NCBI GenBank assembly: GCA_015272515.1
Contig: JACYLN010000039.1
Span: 1-36,056 of the forward strand
Source of the DNA: Leptolyngbyaceae cyanobacterium C42_A2020_001
GTDB lineage: Bacteria > Cyanobacteriota > Cyanobacteriia > Leptolyngbyales > Leptolyngbyaceae
Direction of reading: 5' to 3'
DNA length: 36,056 nt
Part shown: positions 25,492 through 35,378 of the stretch, one piece after another
How positions within the stretch are numbered: position 1 is the stretch's first letter
Layout: every line of letters begins with the position of its first letter
Made by a program: the position numbers and the translations under genes
The notes under the pieces: generated by a model
The model's input: the letters and a program-made list of their open reading frames with translations, nothing else
Databases searched by the model: none
What the model was told of the DNA's origin: nothing

Positions 25492-26580
25492 ATGAAAGAA
25501 CAGCAGCGTTTAGTTGGAATTGACCTGTTCCGTGGCTTTGCCATTTACGCTGTTATTCTTCTTCATATTGATGAAGGTGTGCAAAATGTACCTGCAGCAT
25601 GGTCAAAAATCACTGATTTTTCCTTGTTTGCGGTTCCTTTCTTTCTTGCTACAGCTTTTTATTTTGCTATCAATAAGCTCTATCAATCTAAAGAACCCTA
25701 TCCACTTCGGCAAAGATTGCTTCGCCTTTTAATCCCTTACGGATTCTGGTCTATTTTTTACTTAGTTTATAAGTCTGCTAAGTATGTTGCTGGTGGAGAC
25801 TCTGCTAAATTGGCAGAAATTTTTCAAGATCCACTTTCTATTATTTTCTTCGGGGGAGCTGCTTTTCATCTATATTTCCTTCCTCTACTAGCAACTGGAA
25901 CCCTGTTAATCAGAGTAGTGGAAAACTTGATTACAAGGAAGGTTTCTTTAAGAGGTTTAGGAATTCTGGCTTTAGTTAGTGTGCTGCTTTATGAGGCGGT
26001 TTTGCTGTCTGGCGATGGTCTAAAGACCCCAGAGAACATCGCATTTGAATCCCTCTTAACAGCTGTTTTCCCAACAGGCAATTCGATTCCATTGGTGCGG
26101 TTGATTTTAGTTGTCCTTTTCTGGGCTTTGAAATGTTTACCTTATGTGATGCTTGCAGCAGTTTTAACACATCCAACTTTTAATCAACGCTTTTTGAAGC
26201 TAGTCGGACGATATGCACTACTAGGAATAATTGTGTTTGTAATCCTTAATGGTTTTGGTTCTTTTGTGTTGCCGCCAGCCATTTACGAAGTTGCGAGAGG
26301 TTACACCGCTTTAATTGCCGCGATCGCCTTCTCATTCCTCTTAAAGGAAAACGCTTTAATTAGAAATTTAGGACTGTGCTCGTTTGGAATTTACCTAATT
26401 CATCTTCTTTTTGTTGAAGTTTTCCAATCTGTTTTTGTGCGTCTAAATCCCAACTATGTTAATGATCCAAGTATTGTCGTGTTTCTCCTAGCTTCAATGG
26501 TAATCCTGGTGCTCAGTTGGGGAATTACAGCACTTCTAATGAAGCGAAAGATGTTATCTCGGCTTCTCTTTGGCTTTTAA
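25492..26580 (+). CDS. Acyltransferase-3 family membrane protein
   Basis: These enzymes move acyl groups (often acetyl) across or onto surface glycans and lipids. The 362-residue protein has about ten predicted membrane helices. It opens with the family hallmark IDLFRGFAIYAVILLHID, whose Arg and His are the usual functional residues, and contains RLLRLLIPYGFWSIFY and the characteristic FHLYFLPLLAT (about 125-136). The end has FGIYLIHLLFVEVF, also typical. AGAGGAA lies about 10 nt before the ATG. It is the first gene of the AT-rich plus-strand cluster, and it probably modifies the glycan made by its neighbours. Confidence 0.87.
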   Translation: MKEQQRLVGIDLFRGFAIYAVILLHIDEGVQNVPAAWSKITDFSLFAVPFFLATAFYFAINKLYQSKEPYPLRQRLLRLLIPYGFWSIFYLVYKSAKYVAGGDSAKLAEIFQDPLSIIFFGGAAFHLYFLPLLATGTLLIRVVENLITRKVSLRGLGILALVSVLLYEAVLLSGDGLKTPENIAFESLLTAVFPTGNSIPLVRLILVVLFWALKCLPYVMLAAVLTHPTFNQRFLKLVGRYALLGIIVFVILNGFGSFVLPPAIYEVARGYTALIAAIAFSFLLKENALIRNLGLCSFGIYLIHLLFVEVFQSVFVRLNPNYVNDPSIVVFLLASMVILVLSWGITALLMKRKMLSRLLFGF

Positions 26581-26685: not shown

Positions 26686-29600
26686 ATGATTATTGGAACT
26701 TCCCTTAGCAAACAGCTTCAGCAATATTGGAAGCACATCCACAAGTGCCGAGTAGATATTCTTATTCTTTTGATACTTTCGATTGCGATCGCCTCCATAT
26801 CATTTTTTGCATCGCAGAAAGTCCCAGAGCCAGTGATTAGCGATTTTTATGCTCAAGATGCTTGGTTTGGTAGTGATGTCCCAACCGTTTTTGGTAATTT
26901 AACTAGTCTTCAAAGTGATTTTGGTCGTAATAATAAACATCCTTTATTTCCTCTATTTGTATTTCCACCAATCTTTTTGATAGGGAAATTATTTCGGATT
27001 GAATCCATCTTAGCAGCCAAAATTGTGCTTGCCCTTGTTACTGCACTCTGGACTGGGCTGTTGTTTGTTTTATTTAGGTTGATAGGGTGTCGTCGGCTTG
27101 ATGCAACACTGTTTACGTTGGTCGGAGGGTTTAGCGCTGCTGCAATATTTTGGTTTGTTGTTCCAGAATCTTTTCCATTTGGTTCATTAACTATTTTGAT
27201 TGCACTTGTCTTTGTAGCGCTCACTCAATATCGTAAGTTTTCTCCAGCCTGGTATGTTGCATTAAATGTTGTAACTCTGAGTGTGACTATCACAAATTGG
27301 ATGGCAGGAATTTTAGTGACTATTGTCAATTATCACTGGAAAAAATTCCTGCAAGTTATGCTAATTACTTTTGGAGTAGCAAATGCCCTTTGGATTGTTC
27401 AACGGGTGGTTTTTCGCAATTCCGGTTACTCCTTTTCTTTACGAACGTTTATTGGCGAGAAGAAGTTTATGGCTGAACCAGAGCACGGGAGTGTGCTTTC
27501 AGCCATTAGCTCCTTTTTCTACCAAACAATTGTCATGCCAGCGGCACAGTTTACTGACTCTCCGGATAGACCAGGATGGCCCGATATCACTGGGAATACA
27601 CTAGCACCTGGTTCGGGAGGACTTTTTGGGACGCTCGCTGTTTTAGCCTGGACTGGGCTGTTGTGCTTAGGGATATGGGGTTTCTTTTCCACCAAACAGC
27701 ATCCCAAGTTGCGAATCGTCTTGGGTTTAACGATTCTTGGGCAACTCCTCATGCACAGTGTCTATGGTAGACAGGAGACATTCATCTATTCACTACACTT
27801 TGCGCCTCTGTTGATAGCCCTAGCCGCCTTCAGCGTGTTGACACGCCTGCGTTTAGTAGGGTTGGCGCTCGCTGGAGTGCTGGTTGTGAGTGCTGGTATT
27901 AACAATCGATCGCAATTTGACCAGATCACAACTGCCTTGCTGGATTATGGAACTCCACAGCAGCGGCTTGAATCTCAGATGCGTGTGCGCCCGTCCGATC
28001 CCTGGAGCCGTAGTGTTGGGCATGTTGTTTTAGCAACACCTGGGAGTGATCAAAATCATAAAGCATACTATGAGCCTGGTGGGAGTTTTAGCCCACTGCC
28101 AGGTAGTTTTGGCGTTTCTATTTGGCTGCTCAACAAAGATGGTAGTCTGCAAACAACGAGTGACGTTATTCCGTTAGATAAGATTCAGCAACAGTTTGTT
28201 GAAACTCCGAACAGCAATACGCCTGGAATCTTAGTAAATACAGAGTTTTATCAAGCATCCTGGTTGCCTGTAAATCCAGAAACATGGCAGTTCAATTTGA
28301 AAGTTCCAGCACAATCCGCCACAAAGCCTGCGATCGCAATTCGCAGTGTAGGTCCAGCCGGAGGAGCGATTTACTCTCTAAATTGGGATGGGCAGCGGTT
28401 GCTAATTAATGAACGCTGGTCAATCGAGGTTCCCGCTCAAGCCAAAGTGTATTTAGGCAGCGAACGTTCATCTGGATGGATCAAGCAGAAATCGAACGTA
28501 AGTCAGTGGAAAGACGAAAAAGGATGGGGAGTTGCGCGGATAGAATTGGGCGACGGAGAAGCATGGGAATTAGTAGTCGCAGATTCTGTCTCAGCACCCA
28601 AATCTATTCTGCGCGTGGCTGAAACATCAGCTAACTTAGTCCTGAATTTGCCGGATAAACAGTTTACAGACAGTCTCAATGCTCAAATTGAGCATCTCAT
28701 GATGGGGTTTGTTGGCGATCGCACTCGTCCTAGTGATCCTCTTAGCTATACCCTGCCTCGCTTTCGAGATGGCGCTTATCAGTTAGTGGCACTAGCCCGA
28801 TCTGGACAGTTAGAGGTTGCAAAACAGCTATCTACCTACTTTGCAGAAACAGACTTTCTAAATGGGATTCAGTCGGAAGCTGATGTTCCAGCCTTAGGAA
28901 TTTGGGCACTAGAAACAGTGGCAAAGCAGCTAAAGCAGCCAGATTACGACCAGTGGCTTTGGTCACACGTTCGGCGCAAAGCTGAGTTGGTCATGGATAT
29001 GGCATCCACTAATAGACCAGGTTATCCTGTGATTGAGAAATCGCAAACTCCGTTCTCGGAACATCAAGATTTTCTTACAACAGACATCGTCGCTGGCAAA
29101 ATGGATGGCAAGCCAGGATTGATTACGCTTGATACTAAGGCCAATTTCATGAGCTATCGAGCACTTCAAGATGCTGCTGCATTGGCTGATCGTTTGAATC
29201 AATTAACTGAAGCGAAACGCTGGCGTGAAAAAGCAAAACAAATTCAGGCAGCTTGGCAAAAAGGCTTCAAGAATAAGTTTTCAACCTCAGATGCAACATA
29301 CACTACAGGACTTTGGCCTAGTTGGATTGCATCTACTAACCAAAACGAGTTTGCTCAAACTCTTCAAAATCGTTGGAGCGAACAGCGTGACGAAGCTGGA
29401 CAATTGCGCCAATCACCTGCCAACCCTTACTTCAGTCTTGCTGAAACCCATCAGTGGCTATTTTTGGGCGATCGCGATCGTGTCTGGTCAACCTTAAAGT
29501 GGTTTTGGGAGCATCAAGCTTCACCAGGTCTGTATACTTGGTGGGGAAATTTTGATGGTCCCGAAGGGACTGCCCTACCTAAAAGCCTTTCCCACTGGCA

Positions 29601-29931
29601 CCGCTTTCGTGGGTGGGTCAATCCGCCCAATATCACCCCACACTATTGGACAACTGCTGAAATGGCGCTGCTGCAGTTGGATATGTTGGCATACTGTGAT
29701 CAATCTAAAAGCACACCGACCCTAATTATTGGTTCCGGAGTTCAAGAGCAATGGCTGAGCCAGCCTATGCGCGTCAAGGGGATCTTGGTTGAAGGAAATT
29801 TAGTGAATTGGACTTGGGATGGCAAACAATTAACTGTACAAATTCAAGGTGAAAAAATGCCTGTACAAGTTGGTTCTGCCTTTCCTCCGAACGTTCAAGT
29901 CAATGTCGTGACGATTCAAAAAACGGCATAG
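26686..29931 (+). CDS. Large membrane protein: GT-C-like half fused to six-hairpin glycosidase-like half
   Basis: A 1081-residue protein with two clear halves. Residues about 1-410 are polytopic (roughly 11 predicted helices). The first large loop holds SDFYAQDAWFGSD and KHPLFPLFVFPP, similar to polyprenyl-phosphate-sugar-dependent GT-C glycosyltransferases. Residues about 410-650 form a beta-rich soluble linker. Residues about 655-1000 look like an (alpha/alpha)6 barrel of the six-hairpin glycosidase kind: YTLPRFRDGAYQLVALARSG near 690 (compare the 'RDGA' opening of GH15-like enzymes), FMSYRALQDAAALADRLNQ, AKRWREKAKQIQAAWQKGF, and PHYWTTAEMALLQLDMLAY. The last ~75 residues are a small beta domain. 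Both assignments are from pattern, not from alignment. The soluble part should face the periplasm. ATG at 26686 after GAAAGAGA. Confidence 0.7.
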   Translation: MIIGTSLSKQLQQYWKHIHKCRVDILILLILSIAIASISFFASQKVPEPVISDFYAQDAWFGSDVPTVFGNLTSLQSDFGRNNKHPLFPLFVFPPIFLIGKLFRIESILAAKIVLALVTALWTGLLFVLFRLIGCRRLDATLFTLVGGFSAAAIFWFVVPESFPFGSLTILIALVFVALTQYRKFSPAWYVALNVVTLSVTITNWMAGILVTIVNYHWKKFLQVMLITFGVANALWIVQRVVFRNSGYSFSLRTFIGEKKFMAEPEHGSVLSAISSFFYQTIVMPAAQFTDSPDRPGWPDITGNTLAPGSGGLFGTLAVLAWTGLLCLGIWGFFSTKQHPKLRIVLGLTILGQLLMHSVYGRQETFIYSLHFAPLLIALAAFSVLTRLRLVGLALAGVLVVSAGINNRSQFDQITTALLDYGTPQQRLESQMRVRPSDPWSRSVGHVVLATPGSDQNHKAYYEPGGSFSPLPGSFGVSIWLLNKDGSLQTTSDVIPLDKIQQQFVETPNSNTPGILVNTEFYQASWLPVNPETWQFNLKVPAQSATKPAIAIRSVGPAGGAIYSLNWDGQRLLINERWSIEVPAQAKVYLGSERSSGWIKQKSNVSQWKDEKGWGVARIELGDGEAWELVVADSVSAPKSILRVAETSANLVLNLPDKQFTDSLNAQIEHLMMGFVGDRTRPSDPLSYTLPRFRDGAYQLVALARSGQLEVAKQLSTYFAETDFLNGIQSEADVPALGIWALETVAKQLKQPDYDQWLWSHVRRKAELVMDMASTNRPGYPVIEKSQTPFSEHQDFLTTDIVAGKMDGKPGLITLDTKANFMSYRALQDAAALADRLNQLTEAKRWREKAKQIQAAWQKGFKNKFSTSDATYTTGLWPSWIASTNQNEFAQTLQNRWSEQRDEAGQLRQSPANPYFSLAETHQWLFLGDRDRVWSTLKWFWEHQASPGLYTWWGNFDGPEGTALPKSLSHWHRFRGWVNPPNITPHYWTTAEMALLQLDMLAYCDQSKSTPTLIIGSGVQEQWLSQPMRVKGILVEGNLVNWTWDGKQLTVQIQGEKMPVQVGSAFPPNVQVNVVTIQKTA

Positions 29932-30460: not shown

Positions 30461-30468
30461 ATGTTGAG
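30442..30468 (+). repeat. Tandem duplication containing a 4-codon upstream frame
   Basis: GCGTAATGTTGAG occurs at 30442-30454 and 30456-30468 (period 14). The first copy creates ATG-TTG-AGG-GCG-TAA (30447-30461), whose stop overlaps the start of the following gene as TAATG. Confidence 0.7.
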
Positions 30469-32089
30469 AGAAGAGCAAAAGTTAAGCAAGCATTGGTTAG
30501 GAAAGGGCATTTCTAGTAAACAATGGCTCCTGATTTTAATCGCTCTTCTATTAGTTCTCGGTATATTTTTTCGAGTCATTAACCTTGATAAGAAGCCAGT
30601 GTGGGACGATGAAGCACACACGTTCTCAGTAATTTCAGGATATTCGGACTTGGAAGTTATTGAAAAATTTCCCGCTGCAACATCAGTTAGTGTTGGGGAT
30701 TTTCTGAAATATCAGTACCCTAATTCAGAGAGAGGGTTAGCCGATGTGCTCAAAAAGCTTTACACCGATGTTCATCCCCCTTTCTATTTCCTAACCGCAC
30801 GCTTCTGGGTTGAGCAGTTTGGTCATTCCATCGCAGCCTTGCGTAGTGTATCTGTATTCTTCAGCATATTGGCCTTGCCTTGCATTTACTGGCTGTGCTT
30901 GGAATTGTTTGAGATGCCATCAGTAGGCTATATGGCGATGGTCTTACTATCTGTTTCTCCCTTTCAAATACTTTATGCTCAAGAAAATCGACCTTACAGT
31001 TTATTTACTCTAGTCGTTCTTTTGTCCGGGGCACTATTATTACAGGCTTTAAAAAACCAGAACAAATTCGTATGGCTTGTCTACGCAGCATCTGTTGCTT
31101 TAGGAATCTACTCTCAACTATTTTTCGTTCTAGTTTTATTGGGTTATACCGTCTATGTTTTTGCGATTGAATCCTTTCGATTCACAAAGCGATTTTTCTC
31201 ATTTTTATTTGCGACTTTTCTAGGCTTTATTGCTTTCCTACCTTGGTTTGTTACTCTTTTGCTGAATTTTTCTCACTTTCAAGAAAAGTCTTCTTGGATT
31301 AAGGATAACAAGCTCACTATTCTAGGTGCTGTTCGGCTATGGTCCGAAAATATAAGTCTTTCATTTATTGATCCATGGGCGAGTGAGTATTTCGGTATTG
31401 GTCGGTTTAGTCTTTACTTTTTAATTCCATTTATCTTAGGTTTAGTCGGTTACTCGATTTATATTTTGTTCAGAAAAATTCCCAAACATGTCTATTTGTT
31501 TGTCTTTACTCTAATTGGCTCTACGGCAGTCCCTTTGATAGTTGCTGATGCTGTTTTAGGTGGAAATAGACAAATTTGGCCGCGTTATCTTGTTCCTTGT
31601 TTTTTAGGCTTCCAACTAAGCGTAGCCCATCTTCTTGCTACTCATGCTTTTCCATCTGATCTAGTTCGCCAAAATAAAAAACGTAAGTTTTGGACATTGA
31701 CAACAGTCGCCTTAATCACTAGTTCAATCATTTTTTGTACGATTATTTCACAAGCAAATTCTTGGTGGAACAAGTACGATGGTCAACTGATTCTTAATTT
31801 GACTCAGCAAATTAATCAATCTAAGTCTCCACTTTTAGTTGTAAATCGGGAATACCCAAGATCAGTTCTTTATTTTAGTTTATCTCCAAATGTCTTGCTT
31901 CAGTTTGTTGGAAATGAAAAATTGGATATTTCAATATTAGAAAAGAACCATGATGTTTTTTTGCTAAATCCTACTATGGCTTTAAGAATGGCTGTTGAGC
32001 AGAATGGATACAATTTGGAAACAATCTATAAAAATTCAGACTCAATCTCAGACCGTGTTGATGCGATTGATCTATTCAGAGTCAAGTGA
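30461..32089 (+). CDS. GT39/PMT-like polyprenyl-phosphate-sugar glycosyltransferase
   Basis: GT-C enzymes of this kind (PMT_2/ArnT-like) transfer a sugar from a polyprenyl phosphate to protein, lipid or glycan on the outer face of the membrane. The 542-residue protein has about 11 predicted helices. The first periplasmic loop holds KPVWDDEAHTFSVI with the expected acidic catalytic residues, then VHPPFYFLTARFWVEQFG, and the family-typical LLSVSPFQILYAQENRPYSLF (helices around residues 160-190). A soluble tail of about 110 residues follows the last helix. Acceptor unknown. ATG at 30461 overlaps the stop of a 4-codon upstream frame; there is no Shine-Dalgarno of note. The GT2 gene follows after 53 nt. 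Confidence 0.85.
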   Translation: MLREEQKLSKHWLGKGISSKQWLLILIALLLVLGIFFRVINLDKKPVWDDEAHTFSVISGYSDLEVIEKFPAATSVSVGDFLKYQYPNSERGLADVLKKLYTDVHPPFYFLTARFWVEQFGHSIAALRSVSVFFSILALPCIYWLCLELFEMPSVGYMAMVLLSVSPFQILYAQENRPYSLFTLVVLLSGALLLQALKNQNKFVWLVYAASVALGIYSQLFFVLVLLGYTVYVFAIESFRFTKRFFSFLFATFLGFIAFLPWFVTLLLNFSHFQEKSSWIKDNKLTILGAVRLWSENISLSFIDPWASEYFGIGRFSLYFLIPFILGLVGYSIYILFRKIPKHVYLFVFTLIGSTAVPLIVADAVLGGNRQIWPRYLVPCFLGFQLSVAHLLATHAFPSDLVRQNKKRKFWTLTTVALITSSIIFCTIISQANSWWNKYDGQLILNLTQQINQSKSPLLVVNREYPRSVLYFSLSPNVLLQFVGNEKLDISILEKNHDVFLLNPTMALRMAVEQNGYNLETIYKNSDSISDRVDAIDLFRVK

Positions 32090-32142
32090 TTGAGCTGTTA
32101 CCAGTAAGCTGAGCTGATAGGAATTTACTTTTAGGAGATTCT

Positions 32143-33165
32143 ATGATTGAACCATCAAGAGATGTTGAACTTTCTATTATTATTCCAATGTATAACGAGG
32201 AGGCGAATATTGATTATTTGTTTGAACGTCTCCTAAGTATTCTTGATGGCATGAATACAACGTATGAAGTAATTTGTGTTAATGATGGTTCAAAAGATAA
32301 CACCTTACAATGCTTAGTCGCTTACCATCAGCGTTTCCCCACAATTAAAGTTGTTGATCTATCACGAAATTTTGGGAAGGAAGTAGCTCTCAGTGCAGGG
32401 ATTGATCATGCAAGAGGGTGTGCAGTAATTCCAATTGATGCTGATTTGCAAGACCCGCCTGAATTAATCGTAGAACTTGTGGATAAGTGGAAGCAAGGCT
32501 ACGATGTTGTTTACGCAACTCGACGTTCTCGAAAAGGGGAAAGTTGGTTAAAGCGCTTTACTGCAAATGCCTTTTATCGAACGATTTCTCGAATTAGTCG
32601 AGTACCAATTCCCCGAGATACTGGAGATTTCCGTTTAATCGATCAGAAGGTTGCTGAAGCTCTTAAGCAACTGCCAGAGCGTACTCGCTTTATGAAGGGG
32701 TTGTTTGCTTGGGTAGGGTATCGTCAAACTTCGATTTATTATGATCGTCCCCAGCGTTACCGTGGCAAGAGTACTTGGAACTATTGGAAACTGTGGAACT
32801 TCGCGATTGATGGAATTGCATCCTTTAGTCTTGCGCCTCTAAAGGTGTGGAGTTACATTGGTTTGGCTCTGTCCTTATTGGCTTTTCTTTATGCTAGCTT
32901 TCTTGTGATAAGAACGCTAATTTTTGGAGTAGATGTTCCTGGCTATGCTTCGTTGATGGTTGTTTTACTGTTCTTAGGTGGGATACAACTCATAACTTTG
33001 GGAGTGATCGGTGAGTATATTGGTCGAGTTTATGAGGAAGTGAAAGGGCGACCACTATATTTAGTGAAAAACAGTTATGGATTTCATTCAACTTTATTTG
33101 ACAAGGAACAAGTGCCCCAGTCCTTAGCTCAAAAGCTTTCAATTCCTTCTCAAAGAACCCGATGA
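32143..33165 (+). CDS. GT2 polyprenyl-phosphate glycosyltransferase (GtrB/DPM1-like)
   Basis: Makes polyprenyl-phosphate-linked hexose from a nucleotide sugar at the cytoplasmic face. The 340-residue protein has the GT-A domain (ELSIIIPMYNEEANIDYLF, VICVNDGSKDNT, SRNFGKEVALSAGIDHA, VIPIDADLQDPPE with its Asp-x-Asp, TGDFRLID, RTRFMKGLFAWVGYRQ, RYRGKSTWNYWKLW). Two C-terminal membrane helices follow (about 232-255 and 263-288), then EYIGRVYEEVKGRPLY. This is the complete GtrB pattern. AGGAGA lies 6-7 nt before the ATG. It overlaps the next gene by 4 nt (ATGA, 33162-33165), so the two are translationally coupled. It likely supplies the donor used by the GT39 and GT87 neighbours. Confidence 0.93.
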   Translation: MIEPSRDVELSIIIPMYNEEANIDYLFERLLSILDGMNTTYEVICVNDGSKDNTLQCLVAYHQRFPTIKVVDLSRNFGKEVALSAGIDHARGCAVIPIDADLQDPPELIVELVDKWKQGYDVVYATRRSRKGESWLKRFTANAFYRTISRISRVPIPRDTGDFRLIDQKVAEALKQLPERTRFMKGLFAWVGYRQTSIYYDRPQRYRGKSTWNYWKLWNFAIDGIASFSLAPLKVWSYIGLALSLLAFLYASFLVIRTLIFGVDVPGYASLMVVLLFLGGIQLITLGVIGEYIGRVYEEVKGRPLYLVKNSYGFHSTLFDKEQVPQSLAQKLSIPSQRTR

Positions 33166-33809
33166 TGCCCAAGTTAAAGCGTCAGCTATTTCTACTCACA
33201 CTACTCTGTATTGCTGTAACAGCGCTTGGAGTTTATGTGATTGGTGGTATTGATCCAGTTCAGATTCAACAGCATCTTCAGAAACTTGGTGTTTGGGCAC
33301 CTGTTATCTATGTAGTTCTTTACATAGTTGCTACTTTGCTTCTGCTTCCATCAACAGCACTGAATCTAGCTGGAGGTGCACTCTTTGGTCTGTGGGTTGG
33401 AACTTTGTGGACTAGCATTGCTGCGGTGATCGCTGCAGTAGTTACCTTTTGGTTTACGCGCACCATAGGATACGACTTTGTTTCAAAAAGGTTTGTAGGA
33501 CAGTGGAAAGCGATTGATGCCGAGTTTAGATCAGGCGGATTGTTTTACATTTTCGCGATCCGTTTGTTACCGCTTATTCCCTATGGACTGGTAAATTTTG
33601 CTGCAGGGTTAACCTCCATTCGTTTTCGTGATTACTTCTGGGGCACGACTTTCGGGACGTTTCCTGGTGTCTTTCCTTTTGTGATGCTCGGTAGTTCTGG
33701 ATTAAAGGTGATGAAGACAGGAGATATATTACCGCTCCTTACTGCTCTAGGACTTATAGGTTTGTTGATGTTGGGAAGTACTTGGTATCGCCGTCGCTGT
33801 TCACGTTAA
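33162..33809 (+). CDS. TVP38/TMEM64-family membrane protein (DedA/VTT superfamily)
   Basis: A 215-residue polytopic protein. The VTT-domain core is recognisable: VVLYIVATLLLLPSTALNLAGG, then LFGLWVGTLWTSIAAVIAA, FWFTRTIGYDF, and the hallmark FYIFAIRLLPLIPYGLVNFAAG with FRDYFWGTTFGTFPGVF. DedA-superfamily members include carriers that return undecaprenyl phosphate to the inner leaflet; TVP38 members themselves are less characterised. Two successive ATGs (33162 and 33165) both stay in frame. The 4-nt overlap with the GT2 gene argues for a shared task, possibly movement of the lipid carrier. A short hairpin with AATCT/AGATT-like arms follows the stop but is weak. Confidence 0.9.
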   Translation: MMPKLKRQLFLLTLLCIAVTALGVYVIGGIDPVQIQQHLQKLGVWAPVIYVVLYIVATLLLLPSTALNLAGGALFGLWVGTLWTSIAAVIAAVVTFWFTRTIGYDFVSKRFVGQWKAIDAEFRSGGLFYIFAIRLLPLIPYGLVNFAAGLTSIRFRDYFWGTTFGTFPGVFPFVMLGSSGLKVMKTGDILPLLTALGLIGLLMLGSTWYRRRCSR

Positions 33810-33920
33810 GGATCCATTCTAAAAATCTAGAATGGTTTGAATTAAGTATTGGAAATCTCTTCTTTAAATATTTGTTTGATAATCGAAAAGTCGGCAACTT
33901 CTTTGAAAAACGGAAAGACG

Positions 33921-35378
33921 ATGATGGACCCTTTAGTAATTAAGGTTTTCGGGTTAATCACTTTTAGTTTTGTCATGACTTTGACCATTCTTTCTTTCTT
34001 TCTGACGGACAAAGTTCATGCTGAAAAAACTGAGTCTTCCCATGCGTCTCTCGCTGAAAAGATGACTCAAGCCTTTGCTAATAAAACTTTCAAAATTTTA
34101 CTGGTCTCTATTTGTTCGTTTACCATATCTGTTTATATCTTTTATACATTGCTGGAACTCTATGAATATTTTATCTATCCAACTTCGATTAAAAGTTTTA
34201 TTGACTTTAAGTGGTTTTATCTGGCAAGCAAAATGACTCGTGCTGGAATAAATCCATACGATTTTGATTCTGCTACATACTTGAAAGGCTTCAGAAAATA
34301 TTTTGAAATTAATTCAAATATGAAACCTGTGCCATTTGTTTATCCTCCTAATATCATTCCTATTGTTTTCCCTCTGAGTTATCTTAGTAGTGCGAATGCT
34401 GCTCGAATTTTTTTTATTATTAATTTAGTTAGTTTTGTGTTGCTGCTGAAAGGAGCAGTTAGCCTCCTAAATAAGAAGGATTTAGTTTGGCGGGTAATGT
34501 GCGTGCTTCTATGTTTATCAATTTTTGGAGCAACATTAAATTTATCTCTAGGACAGTTCTCATCTATTGCTGTTTGTTTTTTAGTCTGGAGCATTTTTTA
34601 CGCTAAGAAGGGGGAAAATGCTATAGCTGGGCTTCTCTTAGGAATTAGTACCATTAAACCAACCTTATCTGTATTATTTATTCCTTACTTTTTATTCAAG
34701 AAAAGATATTTATTGATATTTACTAGTCTGTTGACTTCTTCTGCTTTAGCAGTTGTTGGATTGTGGATGAGCGGGAACACGAATGTTCTGAGATTTTTAC
34801 GCTTATATAAGGATAATTCTAAGGTATTCTTTTCACACTTCTTTGAATCGCCTTACACTTCACCGACAAGGATTGATGCAGGGGTCATTCCTGCTGGGCT
34901 TTTTCCCGGTAATGTTGATTTGATCAATTTAATGTCAGCTTTGCTCATTGCTATTCTTTCTGCAAGTGTGGTCATTTTTATTTATCAGAATCGCAAACGC
35001 GGTCAATTTTTGTTGAGTTCAACCTTTTCTTATGCTGAAATTGCTTTGCTTGCGTGCTTGAGTTTAGTCATGGGTTATGCTCAACCACAAAATGCAGTGA
35101 TTTTGGTCTTTGTAGTAGTTTTTCTAATCAACTTTTGTCAATCTCAGCTTAAAGCATACTCAGGATTTGACATGTTTTGTTTATTTTTTATTGTTTTGTG
35201 TTTGGTAATGCATTCGCATATTGCTTATCGTTACTTCTGGCATATATATACTGCAACTGCAGGAGTAGCTCCTTTTGTGAGAGCAACTATCGGTTTACTC
35301 CCTAATTACGCAATTGTAAGTTTGATATTTTCCATTTTGACTTTAAAAACATCGACATTGGTAGATGCTACAGACTGA
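33921..35378 (+). CDS. GT87-like (DUF2029) membrane glycosyltransferase
   Basis: GT87 proteins are GT-C mannosyl/arabinosyl-type transferases using polyprenyl-phosphate sugars. The 485-residue protein has about 11-12 helices. After two N-terminal helices and a charged loop, the diagnostic first periplasmic loop reads DFKWFYLASKMTRAGINPYDF, followed by PFVYPPNIIPIVFP. Later come TLNLSLGQFSSIAVCFLVWS and LLLGISTIKPTLSVLFIPYF, the standard 'K-P' helix of the family, and MGYAQPQNAVILV. The ATG at 33921 was chosen (tandem ATGATG); the frame is open 72 nt further up, but without protein-like content. It follows the TVP38 gene by 111 bp. Confidence 0.83.
   Translation: MMDPLVIKVFGLITFSFVMTLTILSFFLTDKVHAEKTESSHASLAEKMTQAFANKTFKILLVSICSFTISVYIFYTLLELYEYFIYPTSIKSFIDFKWFYLASKMTRAGINPYDFDSATYLKGFRKYFEINSNMKPVPFVYPPNIIPIVFPLSYLSSANAARIFFIINLVSFVLLLKGAVSLLNKKDLVWRVMCVLLCLSIFGATLNLSLGQFSSIAVCFLVWSIFYAKKGENAIAGLLLGISTIKPTLSVLFIPYFLFKKRYLLIFTSLLTSSALAVVGLWMSGNTNVLRFLRLYKDNSKVFFSHFFESPYTSPTRIDAGVIPAGLFPGNVDLINLMSALLIAILSASVVIFIYQNRKRGQFLLSSTFSYAEIALLACLSLVMGYAQPQNAVILVFVVVFLINFCQSQLKAYSGFDMFCLFFIVLCLVMHSHIAYRYFWHIYTATAGVAPFVRATIGLLPNYAIVSLIFSILTLKTSTLVDATD

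Follow-up and report, generated by a model that had tools for sequence, protein, structure and literature searches.

Why would a membrane glycosyltransferase carry an entire glycosidase-like unit on the same polypeptide chain, and what might that unit do there? The question is raised by a gene in a 36,056-nucleotide stretch of DNA (hereafter the window) from Leptolyngbyaceae cyanobacterium C42_A2020_001 (assembly GCA_015272515.1, contig JACYLN010000039.1, positions 1 to 36,056), in which a half of GT-C type is followed by a half resembling six-hairpin glycosidases. The reading that we favour, at somewhat better than even confidence, is that the protein is a pentofuranosyl GT-C transferase of the inner membrane and that in the copy of the window a retired glycosidase module serves as its acceptor-binding module. 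The original prediction had called the architecture from pattern only, because it had a single sequence without a Pfam, NCBIfam or PDB sequence match.

The fusion of a GT-C transferase with a six-hairpin, glycosidase-like half is confirmed. The open reading frame (ORF; 26686-29931, plus strand) runs uninterrupted through 1081 residues, and it is not a chance read-through, since full-length homologues with 54-78% identity were found in 8 other genomes when 97 related genomes were searched with the whole protein. Altogether 17 of the 97 gave a match, namely the window's own genome, the 8 others with full-length homologues and 8 with the N half alone; one genome (G038; G and L numbers denote genomes and loci of our surveys) has two full-length copies plus separate N halves. 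The matches to the N half alone show 36-42% identity in six genomes and are weak, at 27-29%, in G060 and G088. Nineteen fused proteins can be aligned end to end with a mean column identity of 62% (L041 is clipped by a contig end). By sequence the protein of the window matches nothing in Pfam or NCBIfam at E 0.1 and nothing among PDB sequences at E 10, profiles A1 and A5 gave nothing meaningful against PDB sequences (chance matches to ribosome-biogenesis and 14-3-3 proteins), and a free-standing C-half protein (L075) had no match in a sequence-only search.

The whole chain was modelled by AlphaFold2 from 36 aligned sequences, with a mean predicted local distance difference test (pLDDT) score of 89.0 and a predicted template modelling (pTM) score of 0.84. 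The model and comparison with PDB structures give the domain order GT-C (18-421), beta-sandwich, (alpha/alpha)6 barrel (655-1003) and C-terminal beta domain, in agreement with the original prediction, which had one 1081-residue chain joining a GT-C-like half to an (alpha/alpha)6 domain plus beta domains. Neither the six-hairpin barrel placed at residues 655-1000 nor the GT-C nature of the N half was refuted by AlphaFold2, Foldseek and VIA-align.

Residues 18-421 of the whole model resemble ALG12 (VIA-align Z 24.2), Pmt1-Pmt2 (22.0), AftB (20.8) and ArnT (20.2). Modelled separately, the N half (1-421; pLDDT 89.1, pTM 0.90) is again closest to ALG12 (Z 23.9 over 326 residues, 3.2 A), followed by AftB (20.9), ArnT (19.8) and PglB (19.4); the 50 VIA-align matches listed for it are all GT-C proteins or a GT-C-like GPI transamidase subunit (Z 13.0 to 23.9), and every one of the 3 Foldseek matches at E 0.001 or better is GT-C. 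It shows the multi-helix membrane fold of the GT-C superfamily, with the first loop after helix 1. Eight residues are invariant in all 25 N-half rows of the alignment (23 fused, 2 free-standing): Trp60, Phe61, Asp64, His85, Glu258, His357, Tyr360 and Glu364. Asp64 provides the conserved acid of the first extracytoplasmic loop, a position whose role in GT-C enzymes is described in the available part of PMC11127046. These invariant residues fit the pattern expected of an active GT-C enzyme.

The C half has twelve model helices between 658 and 1001, that is, six hairpins. With the whole model as query, Foldseek matched GH94, GH15 and GH78 enzymes at E 8e-11 to 1.6e-8 (TM-scores 0.28-0.35, normalised by the whole-model length), and VIA-align placed residues 442-1080 on GH78 2okx (Z 22.1) and the GH15-type dextran dextrinase 9ju0 (Z 21.9), with GH94, GH95 and GH65 enzymes also matching and MmpH (7qsj) at Z 20.4 over 292 residues. 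Residues 780-786, 788-812 and 959-962 have pLDDT below 50, and the barrel helix 791-802 and some strand-like bits fall in a stretch of low confidence.

What sugar might the GT-C half transfer? Clustering of the neighbours around the named loci brought out a recurrent UbiA-type gene (8 loci), an HAD gene (9) and an SMR gene (5). The UbiA-type neighbour is a decaprenyl-phosphate phosphoribosyltransferase by NCBIfam (270, 253 and 249 bits in the three tested; model NF008978, cut-off 207, counted only above the cut-off). This enzyme is present in 17 of the 20 genomes of the class with a fusion match versus 53 of the 388 overall (Fisher p 1.4e-13, ignoring kinship), those without it being the window's genome (G000), G099, whose match is a scrap, and G267. 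It was found in 9/9 genomes with a separate N-half match in the 97-genome set (the matches of G060 and G088 being weak). With the N half taken as the trait, the figures are 16/17 versus 9/80 (p 3.9e-11, ignoring kinship) and, inside the window's family, 11/12 versus 6/30 (p 2.9e-5), both assuming that the 97-genome set lies within the 388. The phosphoribosyltransferase is no more than 11.1 kb from the fusion on the same contig in 10 of the 17 genomes, on other contigs in 6 and 293 kb apart in G002; it is within 2 kb of the separate N half in 7 of 9, 2.2 Mb apart in G095 and on a different contig in G060. In two loci (L119, L120) an operon comprises the phosphoribosyltransferase, HAD, SMR, acyltransferase, hexapeptide transferase and fusion genes, the Acyl_transf_3 gene of L119 lying two genes upstream of the fusion; L124 has the same set minus the acyltransferase and hexapeptide transferase. 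Operons with the bare GT-C half are seen in L116 and L117, in L122 without a called SMR gene, and in L121 without the HAD gene.

Because it travels with the phosphoribosyltransferase in cyanobacteria, often in the same operon as the HAD and SMR genes, the GT-C half is most likely a pentofuranosyl transferase. The donor of the family in cyanobacteria would most likely be polyprenyl-phosphate ribofuranose, sometimes arabinofuranose. The GT-C half would thus take a polyprenyl-phosphate-linked sugar in the inner membrane, most likely a pentofuranose (D-ribofuranose, or in a few relatives perhaps D-arabinofuranose), and add it to a surface glycan on the periplasmic side. Three things lend indirect support to the earlier suggestion that the protein builds a surface glycan: its GT-C fold, the invariance of Asp64 and the association of relatives with a polyprenyl-phosphoribose pathway. 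In L116, L117 and L122 a gene of 273-290 residues stands directly before the free-standing GT-C half (in L117 with a weak MptE-like match, below cut-off), and in L117 a GT4-type gene follows the GT-C half; these are possible further parts of the pathway.

Several results weigh against this donor assignment. As regards arabinofuranose, DprE1-like proteins adjoin two fusions (L060, 453 bits; L064, 472 bits; cut-off 500), with a DprE2-like protein in L060 (188 bits; cut-off 250), yet DprE1 is present in 22 of the 388 genomes and, among the 20 fusion genomes, only in G206; arabinofuranose is therefore unlikely for most fusion genomes and was dropped as the general donor. Outside cyanobacteria, the flanks available for L065, L068, L081 and L073 show no phosphoribosyltransferase linkage; L073 has an SMR-like neighbour, and L063 has a distant UbiA-HAD protein. 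The genome of the window, 99.98% complete, has no phosphoribosyltransferase above the cut-off (best 27.4 bits against 207), and nothing in it matches the phosphoribosyltransferase of the congener G002, the sole positive control being the G002 gene found by the family model; for SMR, the flippase candidate of the relatives' operons, it has only a weak match (E 8.4e-4). Cyanobacterial DprE1-DprE2 pairs also occur in genomes without a C-half match (L092, L097, L101), with a phosphoribosyltransferase beside the pair in L092 and L097; they resemble a mycobacterial-type donor pathway for arabinofuranose.

The missing phosphoribosyltransferase is the starting point of the alternative that fares best, namely that the GT-C half of the window's strain uses a polyprenyl-phosphate-linked hexose or other sugar, perhaps supplied by the GT2 at 32143-33165, the fusion having been taken over by a different glycan pathway. 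Next to the fusion, as such a takeover would have it, are this GT2, which may make a polyprenyl-phosphate-linked sugar, two more genes of GT-C type and a gene for a DedA protein. Congener G002, however, retains both the phosphoribosyltransferase operon, 293 kb from its fusion, and a fused protein 78% identical to that of the window, and a gap in the 149-contig assembly could conceal the gene. Either the phosphoribosyltransferase of the window's genome lies in such a gap or the enzyme is fed differently. A changed donor seems to us doubtful, and a pentofuranose remains the reading that we prefer.

The GH15 family model did not match the protein of the window at E 1, and it matched 7 of 19 relatives weakly (best E 0.0013). 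Across fused and free-standing rows Arg694-Asp695, Asp723, Glu731, Asp733, Arg975, His986-Tyr987 and Glu992 are mostly conserved, and Arg694-Asp695 places an R-D pair at the start of the second helix. Global hhalign against GH15 proteins gave nothing. Local hhalign against 10 GH15 proteins (P 1.2e-4, probability 54.8) paired W-x-RDGAY with the GH15 W-x-RDA motif, and the GLIxGRMD loop with the GH15 GxWExRG loop, the Asp lying three residues off that Glu. In GH15 enzymes the catalytic acid and base lie in the GxWExRG and GEEGTF loops. In G1d, a GH15 enzyme whose loops are not part of the present alignment, the acid is Glu430 and the base Glu628, according to the portion of PMC9883506 consulted. 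WEGxGEEN paired with the GEEGTF loop at low confidence, and since this base-loop part is weak, no single Glu is named as the base. Glu954 alone was considered for that role and dropped, as L033, L037, L052 and L054 have a Glu in that column of a gappy loop yet lack the motif.

The putative acid loop (GLIxGxMDxxxP) precedes the inner helix at 819, and the putative base loop (WEGxGEEN) sits between the last two helices. Of the 43 tree rows, 24 have both loops intact, comprising 13 of the 32 fused proteins and all 11 free-standing ones (counting L079, which reads FWEGNGEEN and was missed by the automatic base-loop pattern); both loops are absent from the other 19. The loop-intact proteins span Bacteroidota to Nitrospirota and include those of Leptolyngbya, Calothrix, Geitlerinema, Nitrospira and Methylophilales. 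Eighteen of the 19 loop-lacking rows, the window included, form one cyanobacterial clade (Shimodaira-Hasegawa-like approximate likelihood ratio test support 100) in a C-half tree built by a quick method without the loop columns, in which 13 of 40 inner branches were unresolved. The nineteenth (L063, Omnitrophota) lies outside that clade; two changes account for all losses. Neither loop motif is found in any of the 18 rows of the window's clade, the mapping of the base loop being of low confidence and Asp807 being present in the window.

Not in the tree were near-copies (L048, L049, L051-L055, L058, L005, L039, L041, L042), fragments (L040, L071, L085, L089) and broken or partial sequences (L082, L083, L084, L087). 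A pattern check of these found both loops in L084, L039, L041 and L042 and the base loop in L085, L087 and L089; the base motif is missing from L005, L048, L049, L051, L052, L053, L055 and L058, as it is from the sequences that they nearly copy.

The ratio of nonsynonymous to synonymous substitution rates (dN/dS) in five pairs of the loop-lost clade is 0.072-0.134 for the six-hairpin part and 0.076-0.156 for the N half (dS near saturation, 1.4, for the window's pair); one loop-intact pair gave 0.093 and 0.160, respectively. These low values indicate strong purifying selection in the loop-lost clade; the disarmed module is maintained. In relatives the six-hairpin module probably still cuts glycans. 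In the clade of the window the putative acid and base loops are lost, whereas strong selection still preserves the barrel with its R-D motif and the beta domains on either side. In the window's copy the module therefore most likely serves to bind the acceptor or the product glycan, and would position it for the transferase rather than hydrolyse it. A glycosidase that has lost both of these loops yet keeps the R-D motif would be a natural glycan reader, by analogy with the modules of GT136 ORF12 and the Emb enzymes. The earlier prediction left open whether the protein trims or binds the glycan; trimming loses ground with both putative catalytic loops degenerate in the clade, and binding becomes the better alternative.

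Some evidence pulls the other way. The window retains an Asp at 807, though without the surrounding motif, together with Glu731, Asp733 and Glu992. The pairing of WEGxGEEN with the GH15 base loop is, as noted, weak. Two separate C-half copies (L082:2232-3932 and L083:9932-11203) have altered base loops (WSEGTGEED and WWGGESEEN, respectively) and no acid-loop pattern, and the loops are therefore not sacrosanct outside the window's clade either. Finally, the placing of the two halves relative to each other in the whole-chain model is provisional. The L083 protein, from Nitrospira RSF1, has 424-428 residues, matches only 675-1074 and, lying well inside a long contig, appears to be a barrel without further domains.

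These observations bear on whether the protein of the window might be truly bifunctional, its GT-C half building and its six-hairpin half trimming by means of other acids, for instance Asp807, Glu731, Asp733 or Glu992. The fold matches glycosidase families, all four acids are present, L082 and L083 likewise deviate in their loops, and the acid of MmpH is located elsewhere than in GH15, as far as the part of PMC9883506 at hand indicates. Against this, the clade has lost both of the loops that 24 of 43 rows, from Bacteroidota to Nitrospirota, retain, position 807 varies there between D, E, M, Q and G, and the acid-loop stretch is modelled at very low confidence. Trimming by the window's own copy is improbable in our judgement, and we retain the acceptor-binding module as the preferred reading; the loop-intact sister clade may be truly bifunctional.

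A C half in decay, carried along as a relic, would agree with the loss of the putative catalytic loops, but we find this very hard to reconcile with dN/dS values similar to those of the GT-C half and with a C half that extends to the terminal beta domain in the clade rows displayed. An artefact of assembly or gene calling, for which no evidence turned up, is refuted by the fusion in 9 of the 97 related genomes, three of which (G002, G026 and G090) consist of a single contig, and by named records from several phyla.

In the architecture survey proposed with the original prediction, a C-half search of 388 genomes of the class matched 20, most of them inside fused ORFs of 1013-1134 residues; the exceptions were a 45-residue scrap in G099 and pieces at contig edges, one in G267 and one a second piece in G206. 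From these matches, all of them fused, short or at a contig edge, the C half would seem never to stand alone, an idea that was rejected since separate copies exist in other phyla. Pattern and tblastn searches for named relatives gave 43 loci. Fused proteins are encoded in many cyanobacteria, Nitrospira UBC2 (L065), two Methylophilales genomes (L068, L081), an Omnitrophota bin (L063) and a proteobacterial bin (L073), and in part in a bin labelled Tatlockia (L066). Separate C-half proteins occur in Verrucomicrobiota, Planctomycetota, Acidobacteriota, Bacteroidota and Spirochaetota, and the GT-C half occurs alone in cyanobacteria and Methylophilales. As each half exists alone, the fusion joins two families.

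Some of these loci deserve separate mention. In both Methylophilales genomes a free-standing GT-C half (L068:9866-11128, L081:9965-11239) stands immediately upstream of the fused gene; the two copies are 56% identical to each other, and their surroundings look like housekeeping genes. In the Omnitrophota bin a second N-half copy just after the fused gene (L063:13001-13570) is cut at the contig end. The fused protein at L066:909-3386, in a metagenome-assembled genome labelled Tatlockia (Legionellaceae), groups with cyanobacterial ones such as that of Microseira, and its assignment is possibly a binning error. Among the free-standing C-half copies listed, 4 of 11 (L074, L075, L077, L079) have a hydrophobic segment by hydropathy scan and by eye, and export of free-standing copies is likely, if not necessarily of all. 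DUF2961/GH172-type genes adjoin a separate C half in 4 of 15 loci (L078, L080, L084, L086), all from Bacteroidota, by a Pfam match in L078 and by BLAST cluster in the other three, some of the remaining loci having short flanks. The DUF2961 family includes D-arabinofuranosidases, according to the part of PMC10115798 available, and the adjacency is, if thinly, compatible with a pentofuranose substrate.

The features of the window are collected in Table 1. The order of acyltransferase and then fusion is also found, by sequence similarity, in G002 of the same genus (L123). The genes at 30461-35378 (PMT_2, GT2, DedA and GT87) are possibly a separate cassette for a lipid-linked sugar.

Table 1. Positions in the window of the fusion gene, its parts and its neighbours
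Feature	Coordinates	Strand	Basis
Membrane acyltransferase (Acyl_transf_3), just upstream of the fusion	25492..26580	+	PF01757 3e-20
Whole gene, GT-C transferase fused to six-hairpin glycosidase-like module	26686..29931	+	1081 residues, ATG start
GT-C membrane half, residues 1-421	26686..27948	+	Own model and PDB structure matches
Asp64, VWFxxD motif in the loop after helix 1, candidate GT-C catalytic base	26875..26877	+	Invariance; role suggested by GT-C enzymes (PMC11127046, in part)
N-terminal beta-sandwich of the glycosidase-like half, residues 442-650	28009..28635	+	Model strands; GH94, GH65 and GH95 alignments begin at residue 442-443
(alpha/alpha)6 six-hairpin barrel, residues 655-1003	28648..29694	+	12 model helices 658-1001; MmpH 7qsj Z 20.4 over 651-1012
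Arg694-Asp695, equivalent of the GH15 W-x-R-D motif, retained	28765..28770	+	hhalign to GH15; conservation
Degenerate putative general-acid loop, residues 776-815 (intact relatives GLIxGxMDxxxP)	29011..29130	+	Motif comparison; block-mean pLDDT down to 34
Degenerate putative base loop, residues 952-968 (intact relatives WEGxGEEN; window WGNFDGPEG)	29539..29589	+	Motif comparison; pLDDT <50 at 959-962
C-terminal beta domain, residues 1004-1081	29695..29928	+	Model strands
Second GT-C type gene (PMT_2)	30461..32089	+	PF13231 4e-12
GT2, best NCBIfam match PgfS	32143..33165	+	PF00535 6.7e-34; NF047588 279 bits, below cut-off 500
VTT/DedA membrane protein	33162..33809	+	PF09335 2.9e-26
GT87 family gene	33849..35378	+	PF09594 1.2e-21

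A bolder and more tentative proposal concerns the family as a whole. Its loop-intact chains might be self-editing, adding a pentofuranose from a mycobacterial-type lipid donor and hydrolysing the same polymer, with the hydrolase silenced in place in the clade of the window to become an acceptor reader. If so, hydrolysis would set the length of the polymer or release it, pentofuranose glycan synthesis of the mycobacterial kind would extend to cyanobacteria, and the free-standing relatives, some beside DUF2961/GH172-type genes, would constitute a new glycosidase family. The loop-intact relatives and the disarmed clade together amount to a natural experiment in how a polymer-building enzyme gains a reader or an editor. 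Through the donor linkage, surface glycans of cyanobacteria become connected with the polyprenyl-phosphoribose pathway, which is best known in mycobacteria, and are predicted to contain pentofuranose residues.

The original prediction knew of no described example of such a protein. Our search of the open-access literature, which did not cover subscription papers or CAZy, likewise found no fusion of a GT-C enzyme with a glycosidase, no account by way of DUF6080 and none of the pathway or sugar in cyanobacteria. GT-C enzymes with C-terminal carbohydrate-binding modules are, however, described: GT136 ORF12, EmbA/B/C and AftD have them, and that of ORF12 binds the acceptor backbone (PMC11127046, in the part available to us, as for the comparisons with ORF12 and the three-component systems that follow). 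In ORF12 of Citrobacter youngae O1, as in the window's family, the GT-C enzyme continues at its C terminus into an additional extracytoplasmic domain. As compared by description, this addition in ORF12 is a carbohydrate-binding module rich in beta structure, and the flippase is of MATE type, whereas the window's family has a whole six-hairpin glycosidase-like unit and an SMR flippase candidate. The three-component pentofuranose systems have phosphoribosyl-polyprenol synthase and flippase partners, and add the pentofuranose after polymerisation; the synthase is present at the family level here (17 of the 20 cyanobacterial fusion genomes) and was not found in the window's genome.

With the mycobacterial arabinofuranosyltransferases EmbA/B/C, AftB and AftD the N-half model shares the GT-C fold (AftB Z 20.9, AftD Z 17.5, EmbB Z 15.2). 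Their pathway, too, includes the decaprenyl-phosphate phosphoribosyltransferase, and Emb and AftD bear sugar-binding modules; a six-hairpin module is not described for them in the parts of the sources consulted, and the window's protein differs also in lacking a Pfam match at E 0.1. GH15/GH78/GH94-type glycosidases share with the C half the fold, the order of beta-sandwich, barrel and beta domain and the W-x-R-D motif, and its relatives have a GH15-like acid loop, but the protein of the window has no GH15 match, its clade has lost the putative catalytic loops, and a membrane transferase is attached. The methylmannose polysaccharide hydrolase MmpH (7qsj) likewise combines a six-hairpin barrel with bacterial glycan remodelling; it is a single barrel with catalytic candidates Asp47/Asp50 and Glu262 and no attached transferase (PMC9883506, again in part). 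GT-C enzymes with small binding modules are known; here the transferase bears a complete glycosidase-like unit, intact at its loops in some relatives and disarmed in one clade.

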